Of a stretch of DNA of 64,000 bases, positions 50,667 to 64,000 are shown one piece after another. This stretch comes from Rhizobium sp. CF080 (GTDB lineage: Bacteria; Pseudomonadota; Alphaproteobacteria; Rhizobiales; Rhizobiaceae), in assembly GCF_000282095.2 (NCBI RefSeq), contig NZ_AKKC02000002.1, positions 124,001-188,000 of the forward strand, given 5' to 3'. The notes under the pieces are model-generated. The model was not told where the DNA came from and did no database searches. It saw only the letters and a program-made list of their open reading frames with translations. Every line of letters begins with the position of its first letter. Position 1 is the first letter of the stretch. The position numbers and the translations under genes were made by a program.

Positions 50667-51641
50667 TCAGCCTCCCGGCGTTTTGGGACCGGGCGCAGCG
50701 CTTCCATAAAGCGAAATGCGTTCGATCAACAGATTGATGAACCCGGCCTCGTCCACATCGGTCACCACGGTGGCGTTCGGGGTGCGGTCCATCTTTTGGT
50801 AGAAGTCGGCATAGGTATAGCCCATCGTGAGCCCGGTGACCTGCGTACCGACGGTTGCCTTGCGGCTGGTGAAAAGCTCCGGCCTGATCAGCCACGCGAT
50901 CGTCGTCGCGTCGTGGATCGGCCCGCCCGGCCGTCCGAAGCGCACCATGTCACTGCGATCGAAGGTCGAGAAGAGATTGTAGAGCGCACCGCCCGCGGCC
51001 CCGCCGCGAGTGCCGAAGCTCTTGAAGTGTTCCTCGGTGAACAGTGCCTGGAAGGTCATGTCGAGCGGCATCACCACGATCGGGACGCCGGAACGATAGA
51101 CGATCTCTGCCGCATGCGGGTCCGCAAGCACGTTGAACTCGGCCCAGGGGGTGCGATGGCCGAGCGCGGTGAAGGCACCACCCATGGATACGATCTGCCG
51201 GATGCCGCGCGCCACATCGGGATGCTGGATGAGAGCAAGCGCAAGATTGGTCATCGGCCCGATGGCGCAAATGGTGATCGGCTCGCCTGCCTCGGCCGCT
51301 TCGCGCGCCGATCTCACGATGAACCGCACCGCATGTTCTTCCGACGGCTCAATGCCGCCGCGGGCGACGAGGTCATCGCTGAACGCGCCGATCCTCGCAT
51401 ATTTTCCGAGCACCTGCTCCCGGACCAACGGACCGGCCGCGCCCGCGTAGACGGGCACATCGGTGCGGCCGGAGACGCCGACGATCCTGCAGGCGTTCGC
51501 CACCGTATCCTGCAAGGGAACATTTCCCGCCACGATCGACAGGCCGAGCACGTCGATCTCCGGCGATGCCAGCGCCATGAGGATGGCCGCCGCGTCATCC
51601 AAGCCAGGGTCCGCATCGATGATGACCCGTTGGCGGTTCAT
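50667..51641 (-). CDS. Nucleoside hydrolase (IunH family), copy A
   Basis: 324 aa from ATG 51641, overlapping the stop of the paralogue upstream (ATGA). Hydrolyses the N-glycosidic bond of nucleosides. The Ca-binding signature DADPGLDDAAAI is at the N-terminus. AEFNVLADPHAAEIV carries the nucleoside-pocket Asn/Asp, and DATTIAWLIRPELF the late Asp that completes the metal site. All metal ligands are intact. Base preference cannot be read. It is roughly co-linear with the next gene, so the pair arose by tandem duplication or was joined for two substrates. Confidence 0.92.
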   Translation of the reverse strand: MNRQRVIIDADPGLDDAAAILMALASPEIDVLGLSIVAGNVPLQDTVANACRIVGVSGRTDVPVYAGAAGPLVREQVLGKYARIGAFSDDLVARGGIEPSEEHAVRFIVRSAREAAEAGEPITICAIGPMTNLALALIQHPDVARGIRQIVSMGGAFTALGHRTPWAEFNVLADPHAAEIVYRSGVPIVVMPLDMTFQALFTEEHFKSFGTRGGAAGGALYNLFSTFDRSDMVRFGRPGGPIHDATTIAWLIRPELFTSRKATVGTQVTGLTMGYTYADFYQKMDRTPNATVVTDVDEAGFINLLIERISLYGSAAPGPKTPGG

Positions 51642-52597
51642 GCCACGGCCTTTTCGGCGTAACGCGAAAGGCGATCGAGGAACAAGGCGATAATGCCCTC
51701 CGCATCCACTTTGGTCACGATATCCGCATTGGGTTCGAGGCCGCTCTTGCCGTACCAGTCGGCGACGGTCTGGCCCATGCAAAGTTCGCTCTCGTGCTCG
51801 ACGAACACCCGGGCGCGCTCGGTCGTAAAGAGATGCGGCGCCAGAAGGTAAGCGATCACCAGCGGATCATGGAGGGGGCCGCCGCGCGAGCCGTAGCGCC
51901 GCACGTCGTTACGGTCCCAGAAGGCCATGAGTTCGGCAAGCGTCTGTGAGATCCGGCCGCTGACGTTCGAAAACTCTGCGACGTGCTCCGGCTTCAGCAT
52001 GACCTGATGCGTGGCATCGAGTGCCAGCGCGACGATCGGGATGCCGCTCGAAAACACGACATGCGCGGCATGCGGATCGGCCAGCACGTTGAATTCCGCG
52101 GTCATCGTCCGGTTGCCGGGCTCGCGATAGGCGCCGCCCATCATCACGATACGCTCGATGCCCTCGGCGACCTGCGGGTTCATCCGCAGCGCCACAGCGA
52201 GATTGGTCATCGGACCGAGGCAACAGACAGTGATCCGTTTTTTTTCCAGAGCTGCGGCGGTCAGGGTGTCGATCAGGAAATCGACTGCCGACTTGGGCTC
52301 GACCGTCTTCACCGGTTCCGGCAGCACCGTATTGCCCAGCCCGGTCTTGCCGTGGAACTGGCCATAGATCGGCTCGCGCAGCATCGGCCGGAAGCAGCCG
52401 GCATAGACCGGAATATCCGTTCTCCGGCCCAGTTCGCAGATCTGCAGGGCATTGCGCACCGTGCGTTCGAGCGGCTGGTTACCGCAGACGGGCGTGATGC
52501 CGAGGATGTCGAGTTCCGGTGAAACGAAAGCCGTCAGAAGCGCGATCGTGTCGTCTATCCCCGGATCGCAATCCACGATGATCGGAATTGGAGTCAT
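51638..52597 (-). CDS. Nucleoside hydrolase (IunH family), copy B
   Basis: 319 aa paralogue of the neighbouring hydrolase. The signature is DCDPGIDDTIAL, with AEFNVLADPHAAHVV and HDPLVIAYLLAPHLF. Catalytic and metal residues are present. Both copies keep the family length. Having two intact copies inside a peptide-type transporter operon is unusual, since nucleoside hydrolases usually go with nucleoside transporters. It follows the DapA-family gene after 39 bases. Confidence 0.92.
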   Translation of the reverse strand: MTPIPIIVDCDPGIDDTIALLTAFVSPELDILGITPVCGNQPLERTVRNALQICELGRRTDIPVYAGCFRPMLREPIYGQFHGKTGLGNTVLPEPVKTVEPKSAVDFLIDTLTAAALEKKRITVCCLGPMTNLAVALRMNPQVAEGIERIVMMGGAYREPGNRTMTAEFNVLADPHAAHVVFSSGIPIVALALDATHQVMLKPEHVAEFSNVSGRISQTLAELMAFWDRNDVRRYGSRGGPLHDPLVIAYLLAPHLFTTERARVFVEHESELCMGQTVADWYGKSGLEPNADIVTKVDAEGIIALFLDRLSRYAEKAVA

Positions 52598-52636
52598 TTC
52601 GAATTTGCCCTTGAATTGTCAGTCGTATGCCGGCGC

Positions 52637-53518
52637 TCAGAGCGCACCCACATCACGCAGAACCGCACCGATCTCGGCACGAGCCGCCTCACCGAGCGGC
52701 ACCTGCGGCGCCATCGGCGCGCCAACCGGAAAGCCCTGAAGCTCGAGCGCCGTCTTGATGCAGGCGGCGATCGAATATTTCGCGAAGATCTCGTTGACGC
52801 GCCAAAGCAGACGCTGCAATTCCATTGCCTTTGCCCAGTCCCCCGCCTTCGCCGCTTCGTAAAGGGCAATGCTCTGGCGCGGCACGATGCAGGCGGGACC
52901 GGCCATCCAGCCAACCCCACCGATCATCATCACGCAGACCGGAATATGCGCGGAGGCGGCGAACACCTCCATCCGGCCGCGGGTCCGCTCGATGATGGAG
53001 AGGAGGCGCCCGGTATTGGTCGAGGCATCCTTGATGTAACGGATGTTCTCGACATGGCTCAGACGCTCGATGACCGGGAGCGTGAGATCGGAACGCTGGA
53101 ACTGAGGATTGGTGTAGAGAACGACCGGCCGGCCCTTCGCTGCCTTGGCGATAGCCGTAAAATAGGCTTCGACGCCCTCGTCGCTGATCGGGAAATAGGC
53201 TTCGAGAATAGCCAATATTCCGTCGGCCCCGGCCTCGACCATGTATTCCGTCTGAGCAACCGCATCGCTGGTCGACGTAGACGCCACGCCGGCGACAACG
53301 GGCACCCGGCTGCGATTGGCCGAGATTACCGTGTCGACGACGTGACGCCGCTGCTCTTGGGAGAGATAGGCAAATTCACCAGTGCTGCCGAGCGGCGTCA
53401 GGCCATGGACGCCCGCGTCGATCAGGTGATCCACCAGATCAGTCAGCACGCCTTCCATCACCGCACCCGACTGATCGATCGGCGAAACAAGGTAGGGGAA
53501 AACACCGCTGAAAGACAT
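52637..53518 (-). CDS. DapA/NanA-family class I aldolase (dihydrodipicolinate synthase-like)
   Basis: 293 aa (beta/alpha)8 barrel that forms a Schiff base. GSTGE at residues 44-48 matches the family GxxGE motif, Tyr135 lies in VLYTNPQ and Lys163 in RYIKDAS. The family includes dihydrodipicolinate synthase, sialic-acid lyase, 2-keto-3-deoxy-gluconate aldolase and others. Setting (catabolic transporter operon, not lysine synthesis) argues for a lyase of a keto-acid sugar or similar; this is inference. It lies 21 bases after the solute-binding protein gene and precedes the hydrolases. Confidence 0.85.
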
Positions 53519-55225: not shown

Positions 55226-56107
55226 ATGCGATTGAAGCCACGACAGGTCGAAGCCTTCAGAAGCGTGATGATGACGGGTGGCATCACCGCCGCCGCCGAG
55301 GTTATGAACGTCACGCAGCCTGCCGTCAGCCGCCTCATCCGTGACCTGGAGGAAATCCTCGAAATCAGGCTGTTCGAACGGGTCGGGACCCGGCTCATGC
55401 CGACAGCCGAGGCGACGCAGCTCTTCCGGGAGGTCGAGCGGCTTTATCTCGGCCTCGACCAAATTGCCCAGGCCGCGGACGATATCCGCCGGCACAAGAA
55501 CATCGTGCTGAGGATCGCCAGCGTCACTTCGCTGGTCCGGCCCTACCTGCACCAGGCGATCATCGACGTCGTCGGCAACCGTCTGGACATCCCCTTGGTG
55601 ATCGATGTCGAAAACAGCCGGCATATCTGGGACATGGTCGAGAAAAACCGCTACGATCTCGGCTTCGTCTTCGGCTCGCCGCGCATGGCGGACAAGAACG
55701 CGATCCTGCTGCACGGTTCGCATGCGGTCGCCGCCATGGCGCCGGGCCATCGGCTGGCGTCTCGCAAGGTCATCACGCCTGCCGACCTTCTGGACGAGCG
55801 TGTCCTGATCCCGGGCCGCAATTCACCGCTGAGGCTGGCGCTGGACCGCGCCTTTTCGAATGAAGACCATCAACCGATCAGCACCATGGAAACCTCGATG
55901 CTGAACTGCTGCTATTTCGCGGCATCGGGAATGGGTGTCGGCATCGTCGACCATACGAGCCTTCGCTCCGCCGGCGCCGACATCATCGCCATTCCGTTCG
56001 AGCCGAGGATCGAAGTCTCCTATTTCGCCATTCGTCCGTCGGGCGGGCAGCGCATTGCCGTGCTGGACGACATCGTGAGGCGGATGGGCGAATTGATGGG
56101 TCAGTAG
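55226..56107 (+). CDS. LysR-family transcriptional regulator
   Basis: 293 aa. The N-terminal winged helix-turn-helix is typical: LKPRQVEAFRSVMMTGGITAAAEVMNVTQPAVSRLIRDLEEILEIRLFERVGTRLMPTAEA (residues 3-63). The co-inducer-binding domain follows, with LRIASVTSLVRPYLHQAI. Divergent placement over a short gap makes it the likely controller of the 55090-46940 operon. It may also influence the second cluster, which converges on it. The effector is probably a metabolite of that operon (inference). Confidence 0.92.
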   Translation: MRLKPRQVEAFRSVMMTGGITAAAEVMNVTQPAVSRLIRDLEEILEIRLFERVGTRLMPTAEATQLFREVERLYLGLDQIAQAADDIRRHKNIVLRIASVTSLVRPYLHQAIIDVVGNRLDIPLVIDVENSRHIWDMVEKNRYDLGFVFGSPRMADKNAILLHGSHAVAAMAPGHRLASRKVITPADLLDERVLIPGRNSPLRLALDRAFSNEDHQPISTMETSMLNCCYFAASGMGVGIVDHTSLRSAGADIIAIPFEPRIEVSYFAIRPSGGQRIAVLDDIVRRMGELMGQ

Positions 56108-56147: not shown

Positions 56148-56174
56148 AGGAGCGGGATTCGACATCCCGCTCCT
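56148..56174. terminator. Convergent rho-independent terminator
   Basis: Perfect 11-bp stem, AGGAGCGGGAT (56148-56158) and ATCCCGCTCCT (56164-56174), with a 5-base loop. On the - strand it is followed by TTCTGTTTT, so it ends the second ABC operon. It also sits after lysR on the + strand. Confidence 0.9.
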
Positions 56175-56213: not shown

Positions 56214-57746
56214 TCATTCCACTTCGACATTCTCGACGGTTATGCCGGACTGAAAGGTCAGGAAGCCCGGGATATTGGTGAAGCCCTTGACCTTCTTGTT
56301 GAGGCCAAAACTCTGGTCGCGCCACATCAGATAGACGAACGGCGACTGTTCGAGGGCGCGATCCACGAACTGGCCGTAGATCTTTTCGCGCTCGCCGGCA
56401 TCGAGCGTGACGCGTCCCTTGTCCAGGAGATCGTTGATGACCGGGTCGTTGAAGTAGGCGGAGTTGTTGAGCCGCACCAGCTGCTGGCCGCCGTAGAAGA
56501 AGTTGCTGAGCCAGTCGGGGTCGGCGATATCTCCGGCCGTGCCGGCAACCAGGAAGTCGTAGTCACCCGCATTGTTCTTGGCGATACGGCCGGACCAGTC
56601 GGGGAGATCGAGCTTCGCCTTGATGCCGATCTTGGCAAGCTCGGCCTGGACGGCGATAGCGGTGTTGTTGTGGAAGCCGTATTGCGAGGTGGCGAGCAGC
56701 CGGGCTTCGAAACCGTCCGGATAGCCTGCCTTGGCGAGCAGTTCCTTGGCTTTCGCGATGTCGTACTTGAAGAAGTTCGCCTTTTCCTTCGAATACCCCA
56801 TGTAGCCTTCCGGGATTGCGATGCCGAACAGTGGGGTCCCGCGGCCGTTGAAGGCGGTGTTGATGACGGTCGCACGGTCGATTGCGTAGGAAATCGCCTG
56901 CCGCACTTCCGGCTTCGAGAAGGGCTCGAACTTGGTGTTGAACTGCAGCATCATGAACGGGCCGGTGGTGCTTGCCAGCTTCAGGTCCGAGCTGCCTTCG
57001 ATCGAACCGGCATCCTTCCACGGAACGTAGTCGATGATATCGACGTCGCCGGACTTCAGCGCGTTCACGCGGGTGTTTTCGTCGCCGTAGAAGACGTAGT
57101 GCACGTCATCGAGATGCGGCTTGCCCTTTTTGTAGTAGCCGTCGAACTTTTCGACGGTCAGCTCGCGGCCGCGCTCCCAGGTGGCGAACTTGAAGGGGCC
57201 GGCACCGACGGGCGCCGCATTCGGGTCCGTACCATGCGCCTTGATCCAGGCGGCCGGGATGATCGCCGATTCCGGAAGCGCCAGGTAATGCACCAACGGC
57301 ACGAACGGCTTGGAAAGCACCAGCTTCACGGTCTTGGCGTCCGGCGTCTCGATCGACTGGATGACGCCGAGTTCGTTCCGGTAGGTCGCCTTGCTGTCCT
57401 TGGCGGTCATGCGCTCGATGGACGCCTTGACGTCCGCCGACGTGACCGGAGAACCGTCATGGAACTTCGCGTCGCGCAGCTTGAACGTATAGTTGAGCGC
57501 ATCCGGAGCGACGTTGTAGCTCTCGGCGAGCTCCAGCGAGAGCTTGCCGTCGGCGCCGTAGTTGAAGAGGCCGCGATGGATCGCAAGCCGGATGGTGCGC
57601 GCCGGCGTGCCCGCATTGATGGTGCTTTCAAGCGTCGACGGCTCGCCGGAAATACCGAAATAGAGCGTGCCGCCATCCGCCAGCGCTTGATGAGCGAAGA
57701 CGCTCGATGCCAGGGCCAAGACGAGCCCGAAGATCTTCCTTTTCAT
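56214..57746 (-). CDS. Periplasmic solute-binding protein, family 5 (second cluster)
   Basis: 510 aa from ATG 57746, with AAAGGGG upstream; a longer frame to 57791 lacks a signal peptide at its start. Signal peptide KIFGLVLALASSVFAHQALA. Family-5 blocks: SGEPSTLESTINAGTPARTIRLAIHRGLFNYGADG, YTFKLRDAKFHDGSPVTSADVKASIERM, VRQAISYAIDRATVINTAFNGRGTPLFGIAIPEGYMGY and KELLAKAGYPDGFEA. It is the last gene of the operon, after the permeases, with 50 bases before it. Expected ligand is a glycated amino acid or related conjugate, from the enzymes upstream (inference). Confidence 0.93.
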   Translation of the reverse strand: MKRKIFGLVLALASSVFAHQALADGGTLYFGISGEPSTLESTINAGTPARTIRLAIHRGLFNYGADGKLSLELAESYNVAPDALNYTFKLRDAKFHDGSPVTSADVKASIERMTAKDSKATYRNELGVIQSIETPDAKTVKLVLSKPFVPLVHYLALPESAIIPAAWIKAHGTDPNAAPVGAGPFKFATWERGRELTVEKFDGYYKKGKPHLDDVHYVFYGDENTRVNALKSGDVDIIDYVPWKDAGSIEGSSDLKLASTTGPFMMLQFNTKFEPFSKPEVRQAISYAIDRATVINTAFNGRGTPLFGIAIPEGYMGYSKEKANFFKYDIAKAKELLAKAGYPDGFEARLLATSQYGFHNNTAIAVQAELAKIGIKAKLDLPDWSGRIAKNNAGDYDFLVAGTAGDIADPDWLSNFFYGGQQLVRLNNSAYFNDPVINDLLDKGRVTLDAGEREKIYGQFVDRALEQSPFVYLMWRDQSFGLNKKVKGFTNIPGFLTFQSGITVENVEVE

Positions 57747-57796
57747 GCTGTACCCCTTTTTTGCTTCTGTTTGTTGATGAGAAATTGCCATGTCCG

Positions 57797-58636
57797 TTAC
57801 TCCTCCCTGAGTCGTGGATCGAGAATGTCGCGCAGCCGGTCGCCCACCACGTTGATGGCAAGCACCGTCAAGGCGAGAAGAAGAGATGGCCAGATCACGT
57901 ACATCGGGTTCTGGCCGAGATAGCCGCGCGCGGTTCCGATCATCTGGCCCCAGGACGGCTCCGGCGGCACGATGCCGAGGCCGAGGAAGCTCAGGCCGGA
58001 TTCCAGAAGGATGGCGGCCGCGACCGTCAACGTTGCCTGCACGACCAGCGGCGACAGGATGTTCGGCAGGATGGCGGTGAAAACGACGCGGCGGGCTGAC
58101 GCGCCCATCGCATGTTCGGCCTCCATGAACTCCATCCGCGAGACCTGCAGCGTGGCGGCGTGCGCGACGCGGGCGAAATGCGGGACGTAGAGAACGCCGA
58201 TAACGACGGCGAGGCTGAAGATTCCGCTTTCCCAGAATCCGACCGCCAGGAGAGCCAGAAGGATGGGCGGGAAGCTCAGCATGATATCCACGCTGCGCAT
58301 GATCAGGAATGCGATCAGCGGCCGGCCATAAGCGCCCGCGATGCCGATCATGGTTCCGAGAACTCCGGCGATCACGGTCGCGCCGATCGCCACCAGCAAG
58401 GTCGGCTGAACCCCGATCAGCAGGCGGCTCAGCAGATCGCGGCCGAATTCGTCGGTGCCCAGAAAGTGGGCCGTGGAACTGCCCTGATTGACCGTCTGCG
58501 GATTGAGCAGGAACGGATCCTGCGGAGCAAGCCAGCTGCCGAAGACGCCGATGAAGACCACCGCGACGAGCAGCACGATGCTGGCAAGGAAGGACGGCTG
58601 GTTGCGGGTCGCGCGGAGAATTGCCTCGGGGATCAC
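57797..58636 (-). CDS. ABC transporter permease (DppC type, second cluster)
   Basis: 279 aa starting with GTG 58636, which overlaps the DppB stop (GTGA). N-terminal helix FLASIVLLVAVVFIGVFGSWLAPQDPF, then the OppC-type segment with STAHFLGTDEFGRDLLSRLL. The EAA loop is in EFMEAEHAMGASARRVVFTAILPNILSPLVVQ, and the ending is VVGDRLRDILDPRLREE. It is somewhat shorter than the first-cluster permease because it lacks the long N-terminal tail. Confidence 0.93.
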   Translation of the reverse strand: MIPEAILRATRNQPSFLASIVLLVAVVFIGVFGSWLAPQDPFLLNPQTVNQGSSTAHFLGTDEFGRDLLSRLLIGVQPTLLVAIGATVIAGVLGTMIGIAGAYGRPLIAFLIMRSVDIMLSFPPILLALLAVGFWESGIFSLAVVIGVLYVPHFARVAHAATLQVSRMEFMEAEHAMGASARRVVFTAILPNILSPLVVQATLTVAAAILLESGLSFLGLGIVPPEPSWGQMIGTARGYLGQNPMYVIWPSLLLALTVLAINVVGDRLRDILDPRLREE

Positions 58637-59603
58637 GAGCGTTTCCTCCGTATGCGCGGGTCGAGCAGGCTGTAGAGCAGCTCCACCACCAGGTTGATCA
58701 GGATGAACGCCGCCGCGATGGCCAGCATCGCCCCCTGGACCAGAGGATAGTTACGCGCCGATACGGCGCCAACGAGAAGCGTGCTGAGGCCCGGCCAGTT
58801 GAACATGGCTTCGACGAGAACCGTGCCGCCCATGAGGTTACCGAGCTGCAGGCCGATGATCGTGACGATCGGGATCGCGGCATTGCGCAGGACGTGCTGC
58901 CAAATGATCCGCCGTTCGGACATGCCTTTGGCACGCAGCGCGCGGACGAAATCGCGGCCGAGGATTTCCAGCATGGAGGAGCGCGTCATCCGGGCGATCG
59001 ACGCGGCCAGACCGAAGCCCAGAGCCAGCGCCGGCAAGGCCAGCTTGCGGAAATGCTCCAGCGCGTTGCGCGAGATATCCGTGTAGCCGCTTGCCGGAAG
59101 CCAGCCGAGCTTCAGGCTGAAGAACAGCACCAGCAGCGTGCCCATGATATAGACCGGCACCGATATGCCGATCGTCGCGAGCGAGGTCAGCACCGTATCG
59201 CGCATGCTGCCCCGCTTGAGTGCGGCCGCAATGCCGAGCGGAACGCCGATGAGCGTTGCAATGACGATCGCCGCAAATGCGAGCTCGAGTGTGCGCGGCA
59301 GGTTCTGCATCACGTAGTTGGCGACCGGATAACCGTTGGTCAGCGACTTGCCGAAATCGAGATGCAGCGCGTTCCAGAGCCAGACGAAATATTGGGACAC
59401 CACCGGCTGGTCGAGGCCGAGCTGGCTGCGCATCGAGGCGATTGCCTCCGGCGACGGATTGCTGTCGGCACCGAGGAGCAGGAGCACGGGATCGCCCGGC
59501 ATGATGTACATGACGGAGAAGATCAGTGTAGCGACCACCAGAAGCTGGACTAAGGCCGTCAGGAGCTTTCGCGCGGCAAGGAGCAGAGCCCCGATCGAGG
59601 CGT

Positions 59604-59607
<4 letters not shown>
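58633..59607 (-). CDS. ABC transporter permease (DppB type, second cluster)
   Basis: 324 aa. N-terminal helix ALVQLLVVATLIFSVMYIMPGDPVLLLLG with the MPGDP motif of DppB proteins. The EAA loop is in VRALRAKGMSERRIIWQHVLRNAAIPIVTIIG. The C-terminal end is LVVELLYSLLDPRIRRKRS. Same length as its first-cluster counterpart but clearly diverged. Starts overlapping the ATPase stop by 4 bases. Confidence 0.93.
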
Positions 59608-61307
<1,700 letters not shown>

Positions 61308-61318
61308 CCGACCTCCTC

Positions 61319-62212
61319 TCAGACGTGTTCGTTGGTGGGGATGGGAGCGGCATAGCCGAACGCACCGTCGATCCCGCAGATTTCGGCTGCAAACTTGCTG
61401 CCCTTTTCCATGGCGATAGCGATGGCGTCCGCCGAAGGCCGGCTGCCGCGCGTCCAGCCTGCCGCGAGCAGTGAAAGGAGTGTCGCTGTAATGAACGCAT
61501 CGCCGGCGCCGAGCGTATCGACGACATTGGCAGGCTTTGGCATGACCGAAACGAAGTCTTCGCCGTTATAGGCCGTGGCGCCTTCCGGTCCGAAGGTCGC
61601 CAAGGCCAGGCTGCAACCGTTGGAAACGGCTTCGCGCAGGACAGCAAGACCGCGTTCACGACCGACGTCGCCCGCCGAAAGCGCTGCAAAATCAAGATGC
61701 GGCGTTACGGGTCCGATCAGATCGTCCACCTGCCAGCGATAGGAAAAGTCATAGGAAAGCAGGGCGCTCGCGCCCTTCAATGCCGCCAGATGCGGATTGA
61801 GATGGCTGTAGCAGCTCGTGTGCACGAGGCGGAAACCGGCAATATAGTCTAGATCGGCCTGGTCTGGCGTGAAGGGATTTTCGCGCGCGACGCCGCCCTT
61901 GTTGGAAAAGACGAATTCGCGGTTTCCATCAACGACGCGCACATCCGCATGGCCGTTCTCGCCTTCGACAATCCGGCAGAGCGATGTCGGAATGGCAAGC
62001 TCTTCCAGCGTGGAGCGCACATGGCGTCCGGCGGTATCCGTACCGAACGTACCGAGAAAAGCCGCATCCGCGCCGAGCATCTTGGCGTAGGCCGAAAAAT
62101 TGAGCGCATTGCCGCCCGGGTACATCTTGCCCGCATGCAGGTAACGGTCGACGACGTTGTCGCCCAGTCCGAGGACCCTGAGGCCCGAATATGTCTTGTC
62201 CGGCGTCATCAT
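61319..62212 (-). CDS. PfkB-family sugar kinase, FrlD-like (Amadori-compound 6-kinase candidate)
   Basis: 297 aa from ATG 62212 (a second ATG follows directly). PfkB signatures: the N-terminal GGN motif in MYPGGNALNFSAYAKMLGADAAFLGTFGTDTAG (from residue 30) and the C-terminal DTLGAGDAF (residues 232-240) with catalytic Asp238. The start GLGDNVVDRYLHAGKMYPGGN resembles fructoselysine 6-kinase (FrlD) more than ribokinase. Together with the adjacent FrlB-like protein it points to phosphorylation of a fructosamine at C6. Substrate specificity is inferred, not proven; other PfkB sugars remain possible. Confidence 0.82.
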   Translation of the reverse strand: MMTPDKTYSGLRVLGLGDNVVDRYLHAGKMYPGGNALNFSAYAKMLGADAAFLGTFGTDTAGRHVRSTLEELAIPTSLCRIVEGENGHADVRVVDGNREFVFSNKGGVARENPFTPDQADLDYIAGFRLVHTSCYSHLNPHLAALKGASALLSYDFSYRWQVDDLIGPVTPHLDFAALSAGDVGRERGLAVLREAVSNGCSLALATFGPEGATAYNGEDFVSVMPKPANVVDTLGAGDAFITATLLSLLAAGWTRGSRPSADAIAIAMEKGSKFAAEICGIDGAFGYAAPIPTNEHV

Positions 62213-62280
62213 TCCCCGACCGCCTTCCCTGTCGTGCGGTGCCGAGACGGGTGGGACATCCGCCGATCGCGCAGCCCGAC

Positions 62281-62303
62281 CCGGCGCGAAACTCTCGCGC
62301 CGG
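62281..62303 (-). other. Intra-operon stem-loop between the SIS gene and the kinase gene
   Basis: A perfect 9-bp stem, CCGGCGCGA (62281-62289) and TCGCGCCGG (62295-62303), lies in the 124-base gap. No T-run follows on the - strand. It could stabilise or attenuate the mRNA inside the operon. Confidence 0.45.
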
Positions 62304-62336
62304 GATTGAAGGCGATGTGGGCGGACGTCTTCGTCA

Positions 62337-63383
62337 TCAGTAGTCGACTTTCCACATGTAGCGGCGCACGCTGAGCGGATGCTCGCGCAGAACCGAGAGC
62401 GTATGCGCGAACCAGTACCAGGTGACGCCAATCACGAAGGGAGACAGCAGCGGCGAGACGTCCTCGTAGCGGCCGGCATCAAAGGTGATGATCTTGTCCG
62501 TGACGCGGCGGGTGAACTTTAGCGCTCGCTGGTCGATCTTGCGGTTCTCGCCGTTGTCCATCAGGAAGACGTAGGCCATCTCCGGATCGGCGACCTCAAA
62601 CGGGCCGTGGCGGAATTCGCCCGAATGGATGTCGGACGCGTCGAGCCACAGCATCTCGTTGAAGATGCAGATCGAATACTGGTAGTTCAGCGCCGACAGA
62701 ATGCCGCTCGAAAGAACATAGTATATGTTCTCGTCCTTGTAGCGGCGGGCGAGTTCCATGCCGCGCTCGCGCTCGGCATTCTTGATGTCGTGCAGCTTGG
62801 CCGGCATCGCTTCCAGATCGGCGATGAGCTGGGCGCCCACCGGGTTGCCGAGGCGCTTCAGGAAATGGGCGGCGAAGAGATAGGCGATCATCGTCTTCGG
62901 CATGCCCGGCAACTCCTTGCTGTAGGGCAGCAGGTAGTCGCAGATCTTCGCAAGGCCGCTGTCGTGACCCGAGGTCAGCGCCACGGTGACGGCGCCGGTC
63001 GTCTTGGCCCAGCGGGCGGCGACGACCGTGTCTTCGGTCTCACCGTTATGGGACGTGAGGAGCACGACGGCCTTTTCATTGACGGGCTTCGGACGGCGCG
63101 TTTCGAGTTCCGTCGAGTTGATGCGCTCGATCCTGAGGTCGCAATATTTGTCGAGGATGTATTTGACCGGCTCGATATAGGAGTTCGAGCCGCCGGCACC
63201 GACCAGATAGATGGAGTCGATCTGGCGCGAAGAGAAGATTTCATCGACCAGCTTTTCGGCAACCGGGTTGCCGTCACGGAAGGTCATCTCCAGGACGCCC
63301 TTCAGATAGTCGCCTTCCAGGTAGTTCGGGTTCGGAGCGGACTTGATCTGTTCGTCGCTCGGCGTCAGGTTTTCGAGAGCCAT
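62337..63383 (-). CDS. SIS-domain sugar-phosphate deglycase/isomerase, FrlB-like
   Basis: 348 aa from ATG 63383, which has GGAG ten bases upstream; an ATG at 63392 is too close to that site. Two SIS folds: the first has YLVGAGGSNSYIEPVKYILDKY and VVLLTSHNGETEDTVVAARWAK, the phosphosugar loops. The second contains DIHSGEFRHGPFE, in which Glu256 and His259 resemble the Glu/His pair used by FrlB/FraB fructosamine-6-phosphate deglycases. The family cleaves fructosamine-6-P to glucose-6-P plus amino acid. Alternatives are glucosamine-6-P deaminase/isomerase-like roles (AgaS, GlmS C-domain). Next to a FrlD-like kinase the deglycase reading is best. Confidence 0.78.
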   Translation of the reverse strand: MALENLTPSDEQIKSAPNPNYLEGDYLKGVLEMTFRDGNPVAEKLVDEIFSSRQIDSIYLVGAGGSNSYIEPVKYILDKYCDLRIERINSTELETRRPKPVNEKAVVLLTSHNGETEDTVVAARWAKTTGAVTVALTSGHDSGLAKICDYLLPYSKELPGMPKTMIAYLFAAHFLKRLGNPVGAQLIADLEAMPAKLHDIKNAERERGMELARRYKDENIYYVLSSGILSALNYQYSICIFNEMLWLDASDIHSGEFRHGPFEVADPEMAYVFLMDNGENRKIDQRALKFTRRVTDKIITFDAGRYEDVSPLLSPFVIGVTWYWFAHTLSVLREHPLSVRRYMWKVDY

Positions 63384-63406
63384 GTTATTCATTCTCCAAA
63401 GGGAAT

Positions 63407-64000
63407 TCAGGAAGCGCGGCCGAAGCCACCGCCGCCCGGCGTTTGCAGGAACAGGCTGTCCCCGCGGTTCATCAGGATGTTGGTGATCGAGATGTCGTAT
63501 TCCTTGACCGTCCCGTCGGCATTCGCGAATTTCAGCCGGGCAACCTCGCCCTGGCCGCCGCCGAAGACACCGTCTGCCGGCGTCCGGAGGCCTTCGCAGG
63601 ATGCGTTCGCCCGAACGCCATCCGTCATTGCGACCACTTCGCGGACAATGCCCATGCCGCCCGTCGTCTGGCCTTCACCACCCGAGCCGGTGGCGAGCGC
63701 ATAGCGGCGCACCATCAGCGGATATTCGATTTCGAGCGCTTCGGCCGGCAGGTTCGAGGTGTTGGTGATATGCACCTGAATGCCGTTCATGCCGTCGTGG
63801 TCAAGGCTTGCACCCGCACCGCCACCGACGGTTTCGAGGTAGACGAAATTGCCTTCGCGCGTCTTGTGCGGACCGAAAAAGATCATCGTCGCGTTCATGT
63901 CGGCCGAGGAGGCAAAGACCTTCTCCCTCGGCAGCACATCGGCAAAGGCCTGGAAAATGGCGCGGACGACACGCTGGCAGCTGGTCGAGCGGATGCCCAC
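63407..64000 (-). CDS. N-methylhydantoinase/5-oxoprolinase subunit B (HyuB), C-terminal part
   Basis: Only the last 197 residues are inside the window; the start and any hyuA partner are beyond base 64000. HyuB-family blocks: NFVYLETVGGGAGASLDHDGMNGIQVHITNTSNLPAEALEIEYPLMV, RRYALATGSGGEGQTTGGMGIVREV and the Gly-rich end SLFLQTPGGGGFG. HyuA/HyuB pairs open cyclic amides (hydantoins, 5-oxoproline) with ATP. It ends 23 bases before the SIS gene start, in the same orientation, so it belongs to the same operon. It should therefore act on the same imported compound. Confidence 0.9.
   Translation of the reverse strand: MGIRSTSCQRVVRAIFQAFADVLPREKVFASSADMNATMIFFGPHKTREGNFVYLETVGGGAGASLDHDGMNGIQVHITNTSNLPAEALEIEYPLMVRRYALATGSGGEGQTTGGMGIVREVVAMTDGVRANASCEGLRTPADGVFGGGQGEVARLKFANADGTVKEYDISITNILMNRGDSLFLQTPGGGGFGRAS

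Follow-up and report, generated by a model that had tools for sequence, protein, structure and literature searches.

The window, a stretch of 64,000 nucleotides from Rhizobium sp. CF080 (genome G000, C15:124001-188000, on a 1.13-Mb contig), ends within a minus-strand operon whose products probably import and degrade a lactam derived from an Amadori compound. The operon is cut by the window end at position 64000, and its remainder was read from the contig beyond. In the order of transcription it comprises hyuA, hyuB, a gene for a SIS-domain protein, a PfkB kinase gene, a gene for a fused ATP-binding cassette (ABC) ATPase, two permease genes and a binding-protein gene, with lysR lying divergent from hyuA. 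All parts that a preliminary description of this DNA had claimed (HyuB, SIS, PfkB and a complete ABC importer) are present on the minus strand in one operon, and the contig past position 64000 contains hyuA and a regulator, as had been predicted.

67210-68112 in the window frame (C15:191210-192112), beyond the window, facing hyuA: divergent lysR gene, LysR domains
65017-67062 in the window frame (C15:189017-191062), beyond the window, minus strand: hyuA, domains PF05378 and PF01968
63407-65017 in the window frame (C15:187407-189017), minus strand: hyuB, whole gene, domain PF02538 (E 6.2e-175)
62337..63392, minus strand: FrlB-like SIS-domain protein, putative deglycase, PF01380, E246/H262 pair
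61319..62212, minus strand: FrlD-like PfkB kinase, PfkB domain (E 7.1e-25), DTLGAGDAF motif
59604..61307, minus strand: fused double ABC ATPase, found by domain search
58633..59607, minus strand: ABC permease of the DppB/NikB type, BPD domain
57797..58636, minus strand: ABC permease of the DppC/NikC type, BPD domain
56214..57791, minus strand: AgaA-like periplasmic solute-binding protein, SBP_bac_5 (E 7.7e-95)
56148..56174, minus strand: terminator-like hairpin, 11 pairs, T-rich tail, 40 bases past the last stop codon

Within the window, hyuB is represented by its C-terminal third at 63407..64000 (minus strand), amounting to 197 codons of Hydantoinase_B, and the start of the whole gene shares one base with the stop codon of hyuA. 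The genes of the operon overlap or are separated by gaps of at most about 15 bases, with the exception of 124 bases ahead of the kinase gene. For the binding protein, a shorter form that starts near 57746, at the signal peptide, is possible, in which case the gap ahead of its gene would widen to about 50 bases. The hairpin is only suggestive of a terminator, as the hairpin scan overall gave 6 compared with a shuffled mean of 6.2.

The best NCBIfam match of the SIS protein is fructoselysine-6-phosphate deglycase (NF008481, 144.5 bits), and its closest Protein Data Bank (PDB) chain is 3eua, named 'putative fructose-aminoacid-6-phosphate deglycase' (E 5.5e-49). A properly spaced Glu/His pair is formed by E246 (in NEMLW) and H262 (in HGPFE), which are 16 residues apart (E-x15-H) and presumably catalytic, as in GlmS and FraB; the 'EFxHG' site of the preliminary description had named a different Glu. 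The kinase, in which GAGD is kept, finds its best NCBIfam match in fructoselysine 6-kinase (NF007321, 149.7 bits), and the N-terminal and central domains of HyuA as well as the HyuB domain were all detected. The importer resembles that encoded in the aga region of the octopine tumour-inducing (Ti) plasmid NC_002377: the binding protein matches AgaA in PDB entry 6hlx (E 8e-234) and shares 68% identity with the plasmid's own AgaA, while the ATPase, the DppB/NikB-type permease and the DppC/NikC-type permease reach 64%, 74% and 71%, respectively. The ligand of AgaA is agropinic acid, the lactam of mannopinic acid, which thus carries a sugar alcohol on 5-oxoproline; its import is the subject of a 2019 paper by Marty. 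The aga genes on NC_002377 adjoin HyuAB and a flavin adenine dinucleotide (FAD) oxidoreductase, and the name 'agropinic acid uptake operon' appears in a legend of PMC6341043.

On the chrysopine-type plasmid pTiChry5 (NZ_KX388536, L041), all nine genes occur in identical order, with identities of 95% for LysR, 92% for HyuA, 94% for HyuB, 92% for SIS, 74% for PfkB, 89% for the ATPase, 93% and 89% for the DppB/NikB-type and DppC/NikC-type permeases, and 93% for the solute-binding protein. Their annotation there is confined to general names, one being 'fructoselysine 6-kinase', and the operon is flanked by trb genes (with one amidotransferase gene) and by a set of LacI, DAO-oxidoreductase and amino-acid-ABC genes. 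The kinase encoded at 61319-62212 diverges faster than its neighbours (74% versus 89-95% to pTiChry5), and in a metagenome-assembled genome (L085) it is 55% identical to the window protein compared with 82% for SIS. Ten plasmid records encode a SIS protein of at least 90% identity, and the gene order is present in all four examined, i.e. pTiChry5, Neorhizobium EC2-8, N. galegae VafX2 and N. galegae HAMBI 540, with split reading frames in the VafX2 and EC2-8 copies.

Conservation was further followed in 14 named loci, obtained by a contig scan with the SIS protein that reaches close relatives only. They belong to Neorhizobium, Xaviernesmea, Rhizobium, Oryzicola, Agrobacterium larrymoorei, Microvirga, Chelatococcus, Allorhizobium, a Rhizobiales isolate and the metagenome-assembled genome. 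The full nine-gene order is found in 13 of them, so that HyuB, for which the preliminary description had considered separate transcription in relatives, is contiguous with the other genes in 13 of 14. The copies of A. larrymoorei FPH-AR2 and R. skierniewicense DSM 26438 encode nine proteins that are 100% identical to those of pTiChry5. A VirE2 gene is present in G120 and G017, the genomes with the pTiChry5-identical operon, and had no match in the window's genome nor in G140, which belongs to the same genus, and G028 (these locus sets overlap: L072, L078, L080 and L081 lie in G140, G028, G120 and G017, respectively). No SIS gene more than 26% identical to the T-region SIS was found in the window's genome, and two Ti-bearing genomes have both a T-region SIS and VirE2. 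The idea that the window's genome harbours a tumour plasmid was rejected, since VirE2 is unmatched there and found in G120 and G017; a search for RolB found no match in its controls.

Allorhizobium borbori (L084, L110) encodes a window-type SIS protein (89%) and transporter (83-93%), and its genome contains no window-type HyuB (best match 42%). Here, SIS and importer genes are followed by a GntR-PfkB-HyuA-HyuB block that is 50-68% identical to L048 of the window's own genome, and a transposase-like open reading frame (ORF), judged by eye, lies ahead of SIS. All four functions are retained in A. borbori, with kinase and HyuAB from another lineage. L048 itself (G000:C13:1786001-1805000) is a second HyuAB, PfkB and SIS set; its regulator is GntR-like, its binding protein resembles AgaA (40%), and genes for permease and ATPase are also present. 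Compared with the nearest reference proteins, its four enzymes reach no more than 34-43% identity, so substrates across such loci may differ, and that of L048 is possibly a different cyclised Amadori compound.

The co-occurrence of HyuAB and SIS genes extends beyond this operon type. Among 68 SIS places, 35 of which come from 151 genomes of the family (E 1e-20) and 33 from 397 genomes of the order and 385 of the class (E 1e-50), PfkB lies within 9 kb of SIS in 66 and HyuAB in at least 18, a lower bound because for some loci the stretch available on one flank falls short of 9 kb. The 10 HyuB genes of the window's genome put a random place within 9 kb of one at 2.6%, corresponding to a chance expectation of about 1.7 in 68 if this density applies elsewhere. 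Hence, the association is more than chance, albeit among non-independent loci: five are of the window type, one is the second locus of the same genome, three (G377, G447 and G767) combine a GntR gene, SIS and PfkB with HyuAB and a FAD gene that are 66-69% and 57-60% identical, respectively, to their aga counterparts, eight stem from one genus (g177 of f44), and one is in G070 (L138). The latter association, with HyuAB 6.9-8.8 kb off and at 33-40% identity, is probably due to chance, though it is counted among the 18. In six of the eight g177 loci, PfkB is found within 9 kb of SIS together with aga-type versions of both HyuAB and the FAD oxidoreductase, while L090 and L094 have neither PfkB nor a FAD gene within that distance. 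The f44 loci whose gene lists were examined show a GntR gene between HyuAB and SIS and may thus be two neighbouring operons. On the SIS tree, the HyuAB label needs five changes, four of them forced by starred branches, compared with a shuffled mean of 16, and on the HyuB tree the SIS-associated genes fall into three lineages with HyuB genes without a listed SIS neighbour in between; both are quick trees with long branches and call for caution. In other families, L106, L107 and L109 contain SIS and PfkB alongside HyuAB and a FAD oxidoreductase that are both of the aga type, as might be expected if mannityl and fructosyl lactams were processed by a single cluster. The window's own genome also contains aga-type HyuAB (60 and 65%) without SIS (L004/L111).

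The gap between lysR and hyuA contains a conserved inverted repeat, which reads ATTCCATTTTGGAAT in 11 of 17 loci and takes variant forms in the others. The alignment covers 17 of 18 loci, as the LysR start of L085 was not located, and L041, L080 and L081 are identical in this gap. The copy ahead of the present operon, ATTCCATTTTGGCAT, lies at L009:13171-13192 (C15:191170-191191), and a search of the 7.05-Mb genome with the surrounding 22-base pattern, allowing up to three mismatches, gave this single site, with none for the reversed control. The repeat is a probable LysR operator. A second LysR protein, encoded at 55226-56107, was rejected as regulator of the operon, as no gene of the related loci showing the operon has it as its best match; L049, L072 and L074 hold fewer than 300 bases beyond the binding-protein gene and are uninformative on this point. 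The conserved, putative regulator of the operon is the LysR protein encoded beyond hyuA, distinct from that at 55226-56107.

On the basis of the gene content, gene order, homology, conservation and recurrence established here, we infer the following reactions, step order, substrate and regulation. With good confidence, we propose that the operon imports and degrades a lactam Amadori compound. The best candidate is N-(1-deoxyfructosyl)-5-oxoproline (dfop), which is deoxyfructosyl-glutamine (DFG) in its lactam form. A dfop-type substrate is proposed because the importer is AgaA-like and because the nine-gene operon occurs on pTiChry5, and both agree with the substrate class already named in the preliminary description, an Amadori compound with an oxoproline ring. 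Following uptake of dfop by the AgaA-type binding protein and the ABC importer, HyuAB would use ATP to open the 5-oxoproline ring, furnishing deoxyfructosyl-glutamate. The PfkB kinase may then phosphorylate the sugar at C6, before the SIS deglycase would afford glucose-6-phosphate and glutamate, with the divergent LysR protein presumably governing the operon. Ring opening is placed ahead of deglycation, since deglycation requires a Schiff base, the formation of which is difficult for an amide nitrogen. Chilton is reported to have described in 1995 the closure of DFG to dfop and to have identified the latter as a crown-gall opine of the chrysopine type, and Shao reportedly described Amadori-opine catabolic genes on pTiChry5 in 2018. 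The claim of an undescribed pathway was hence too strong, also in view of a HyuAB pair that, in an excerpt of PMC6733357, is proposed to open lactam opines of pTiEU6. Excerpts of PMC4231840 and PMC4070556 place DFG in tumours of chrysopine-type strains, and a passage of PMC9609667 gives phosphorylation and deglycation of this kind for FraD and FraB, which act on fructose-aspartate, itself formed from fructose-asparagine via asparaginase. No assignment of the present genes to dfop was found in the open-licence literature of PubMed Central, where most matches were judged by title and the start of the abstract. As a prediction, the proposal ties specific genes to a lactam opine for which this searchable literature yielded no assigned catabolic genes.

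The T-region of pTiChry5 holds a short-chain dehydrogenase/reductase (SDR) gene (L047:19806-21038) that adjoins a SIS gene and encodes an N-terminal histidine-phosphatase domain (PF00300). As this phosphatase domain occurs beside the SIS gene, it suggests that plant-side opine synthesis could be the catabolic route in reverse, with SIS-mediated condensation on the sugar phosphate and a phosphatase replacing the kinase.

Several observations weigh against the proposed dfop pathway. The SIS protein and the kinase score below the equivalog cut-offs of FrlB (NF008481, 430 bits) and FrlD (NF007321, 247 bits), the latter being likewise missed by the kinase of the octopine-Ti moc region (176.7 bits). 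The named ligand of AgaA is a mannityl and not a fructosyl lactam. The HyuAB proteins are only 46 and 40% identical to those of aga, and they group with pairs that adjoin FAD oxidoreductases, not SIS genes, on pTiS4 and pAt2788b and in Thioclava and Salipiger. In addition, 50 of the 68 SIS loci are without HyuAB found inside 9 kb, and dfop is not named in the excerpts of open-licence literature examined.

Agropinic acid itself is an unlikely substrate in our estimation. HyuAB would convert this mannityl lactam into mannopinic acid, an oxidoreductase encoded elsewhere in the genome would generate the fructosyl compound, and kinase and deglycase would follow. The importer is closest to AgaA, and the six g177 loci described above hold FAD oxidoreductase, HyuAB and PfkB together near SIS. 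In L092 and L098, the two of these six whose wider surroundings were examined, these genes are preceded by an SDR that shares 42-43% identity, across about 217 residues, with the SDR of the pTiChry5 T-region. However, no such oxidoreductase is fixed in the window-type loci, where four of 14 have SDRs nearby with 28-37% identity to the reference, and the matching operon sits on a chrysopine-type and not on a mannityl-opine Ti plasmid. Slightly less probable still is another cyclised glycated substrate, i.e. a hydantoin, a diketopiperazine or an Amadori lactam built on some other amino acid. The solved HyuAB relatives are indeed variously named (N-methylhydantoinase, 5-oxoprolinase, hydantoinase), and the second locus L048 matches its nearest references only distantly, but the AgaA-like importer and the pTiChry5 match indicate an oxoproline sugar compound. 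Hydantoin, offered as an alternative in the preliminary description, was rejected, as it has no evidence of its own beyond the family name. That two separate pathways are merely linked here, with kinase and deglycase acting on linear fructosyl-glutamine or -glutamate and HyuAB on free 5-oxoproline or another lactam, is very improbable: the many SIS loci without HyuAB found nearby imply that kinase and deglycase can serve alone, but the gene order is tight in 13 of 14 loci and the pair has been re-assembled from other lineages.

Returning to dfop-type lactams as substrates, it is a real, if not quite even, prospect that lactam-opening HyuAB, fructosamine kinase and deglycase constitute a general module of plant-associated Alphaproteobacteria for cyclised Amadori compounds that was assembled repeatedly with HyuAB of different lineages, and that chrysopine-type plasmids borrowed it from non-tumorigenic rhizobia. 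Lactams of the dfop type would in that case be a common nutrient in soil and plants and not exclusively a tumour opine. The present locus suggests that rhizobia without signs of T-DNA use the same compounds as crown-gall bacteria.

Elsewhere in the window, a neighbouring gene set at 50667-53518 (minus strand) shows an unusual pairing: two inosine-uridine nucleoside hydrolases are encoded together with a member of the dihydrodipicolinate synthase family, and an Opp-type binding protein is encoded close by.

Among known systems, frlD-frlB and fraD-fraB share with the present operon a PfkB kinase and a SIS deglycase with the same Glu/His spacing; these pathways are not known to include a lactam hydrolase. 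Octopine and chrysopine Ti plasmids carry a moc-type operon of SIS, PfkB and M24 genes, which likewise employs SIS and PfkB proteins for a DFG-type compound. Its SIS is 28% and its PfkB 37-39% identical to the window proteins (39% for the octopine-Ti kinase), and it differs by another importer and the lack of HyuAB. A mocD mutant was unable to degrade DFG, as stated in an excerpt of PMC6341043. The soc operon of pAtC58, which serves oxidative DFG use, also acts on Amadori opines, and a soc-looking set adjoins the operon on pTiChry5. The soc operon relies on a FAD oxidase and an amino-acid ABC importer; by blastp against two FAD references, no FAD amadoriase was found in the window operon or the full named loci. 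With the aga region, the operon shares the AgaA-type binding protein, the permeases, the fused ATPase and HyuAB. The SIS and PfkB pair of NC_002377 lies about 14 kb away from HyuAB in a separate operon, whereas both belong to the same operon in the window. Blastp with the aga and pTiChry5 FAD references revealed no similar ORF inside the operon in the window and 13 full named loci, and the operon copies on Ti plasmids, L080 and L081, have a FAD gene directly after the operon. Filing the operon as aga was ruled out, since the FAD oxidoreductase is missing and SIS and PfkB are present. This replacement of the FAD oxidoreductase by kinase and deglycase fits the need of a 2-keto (fructosyl) sugar, and one pathway would thereby join ATP-dependent lactam hydrolysis with deglycation by kinase and deglycase.

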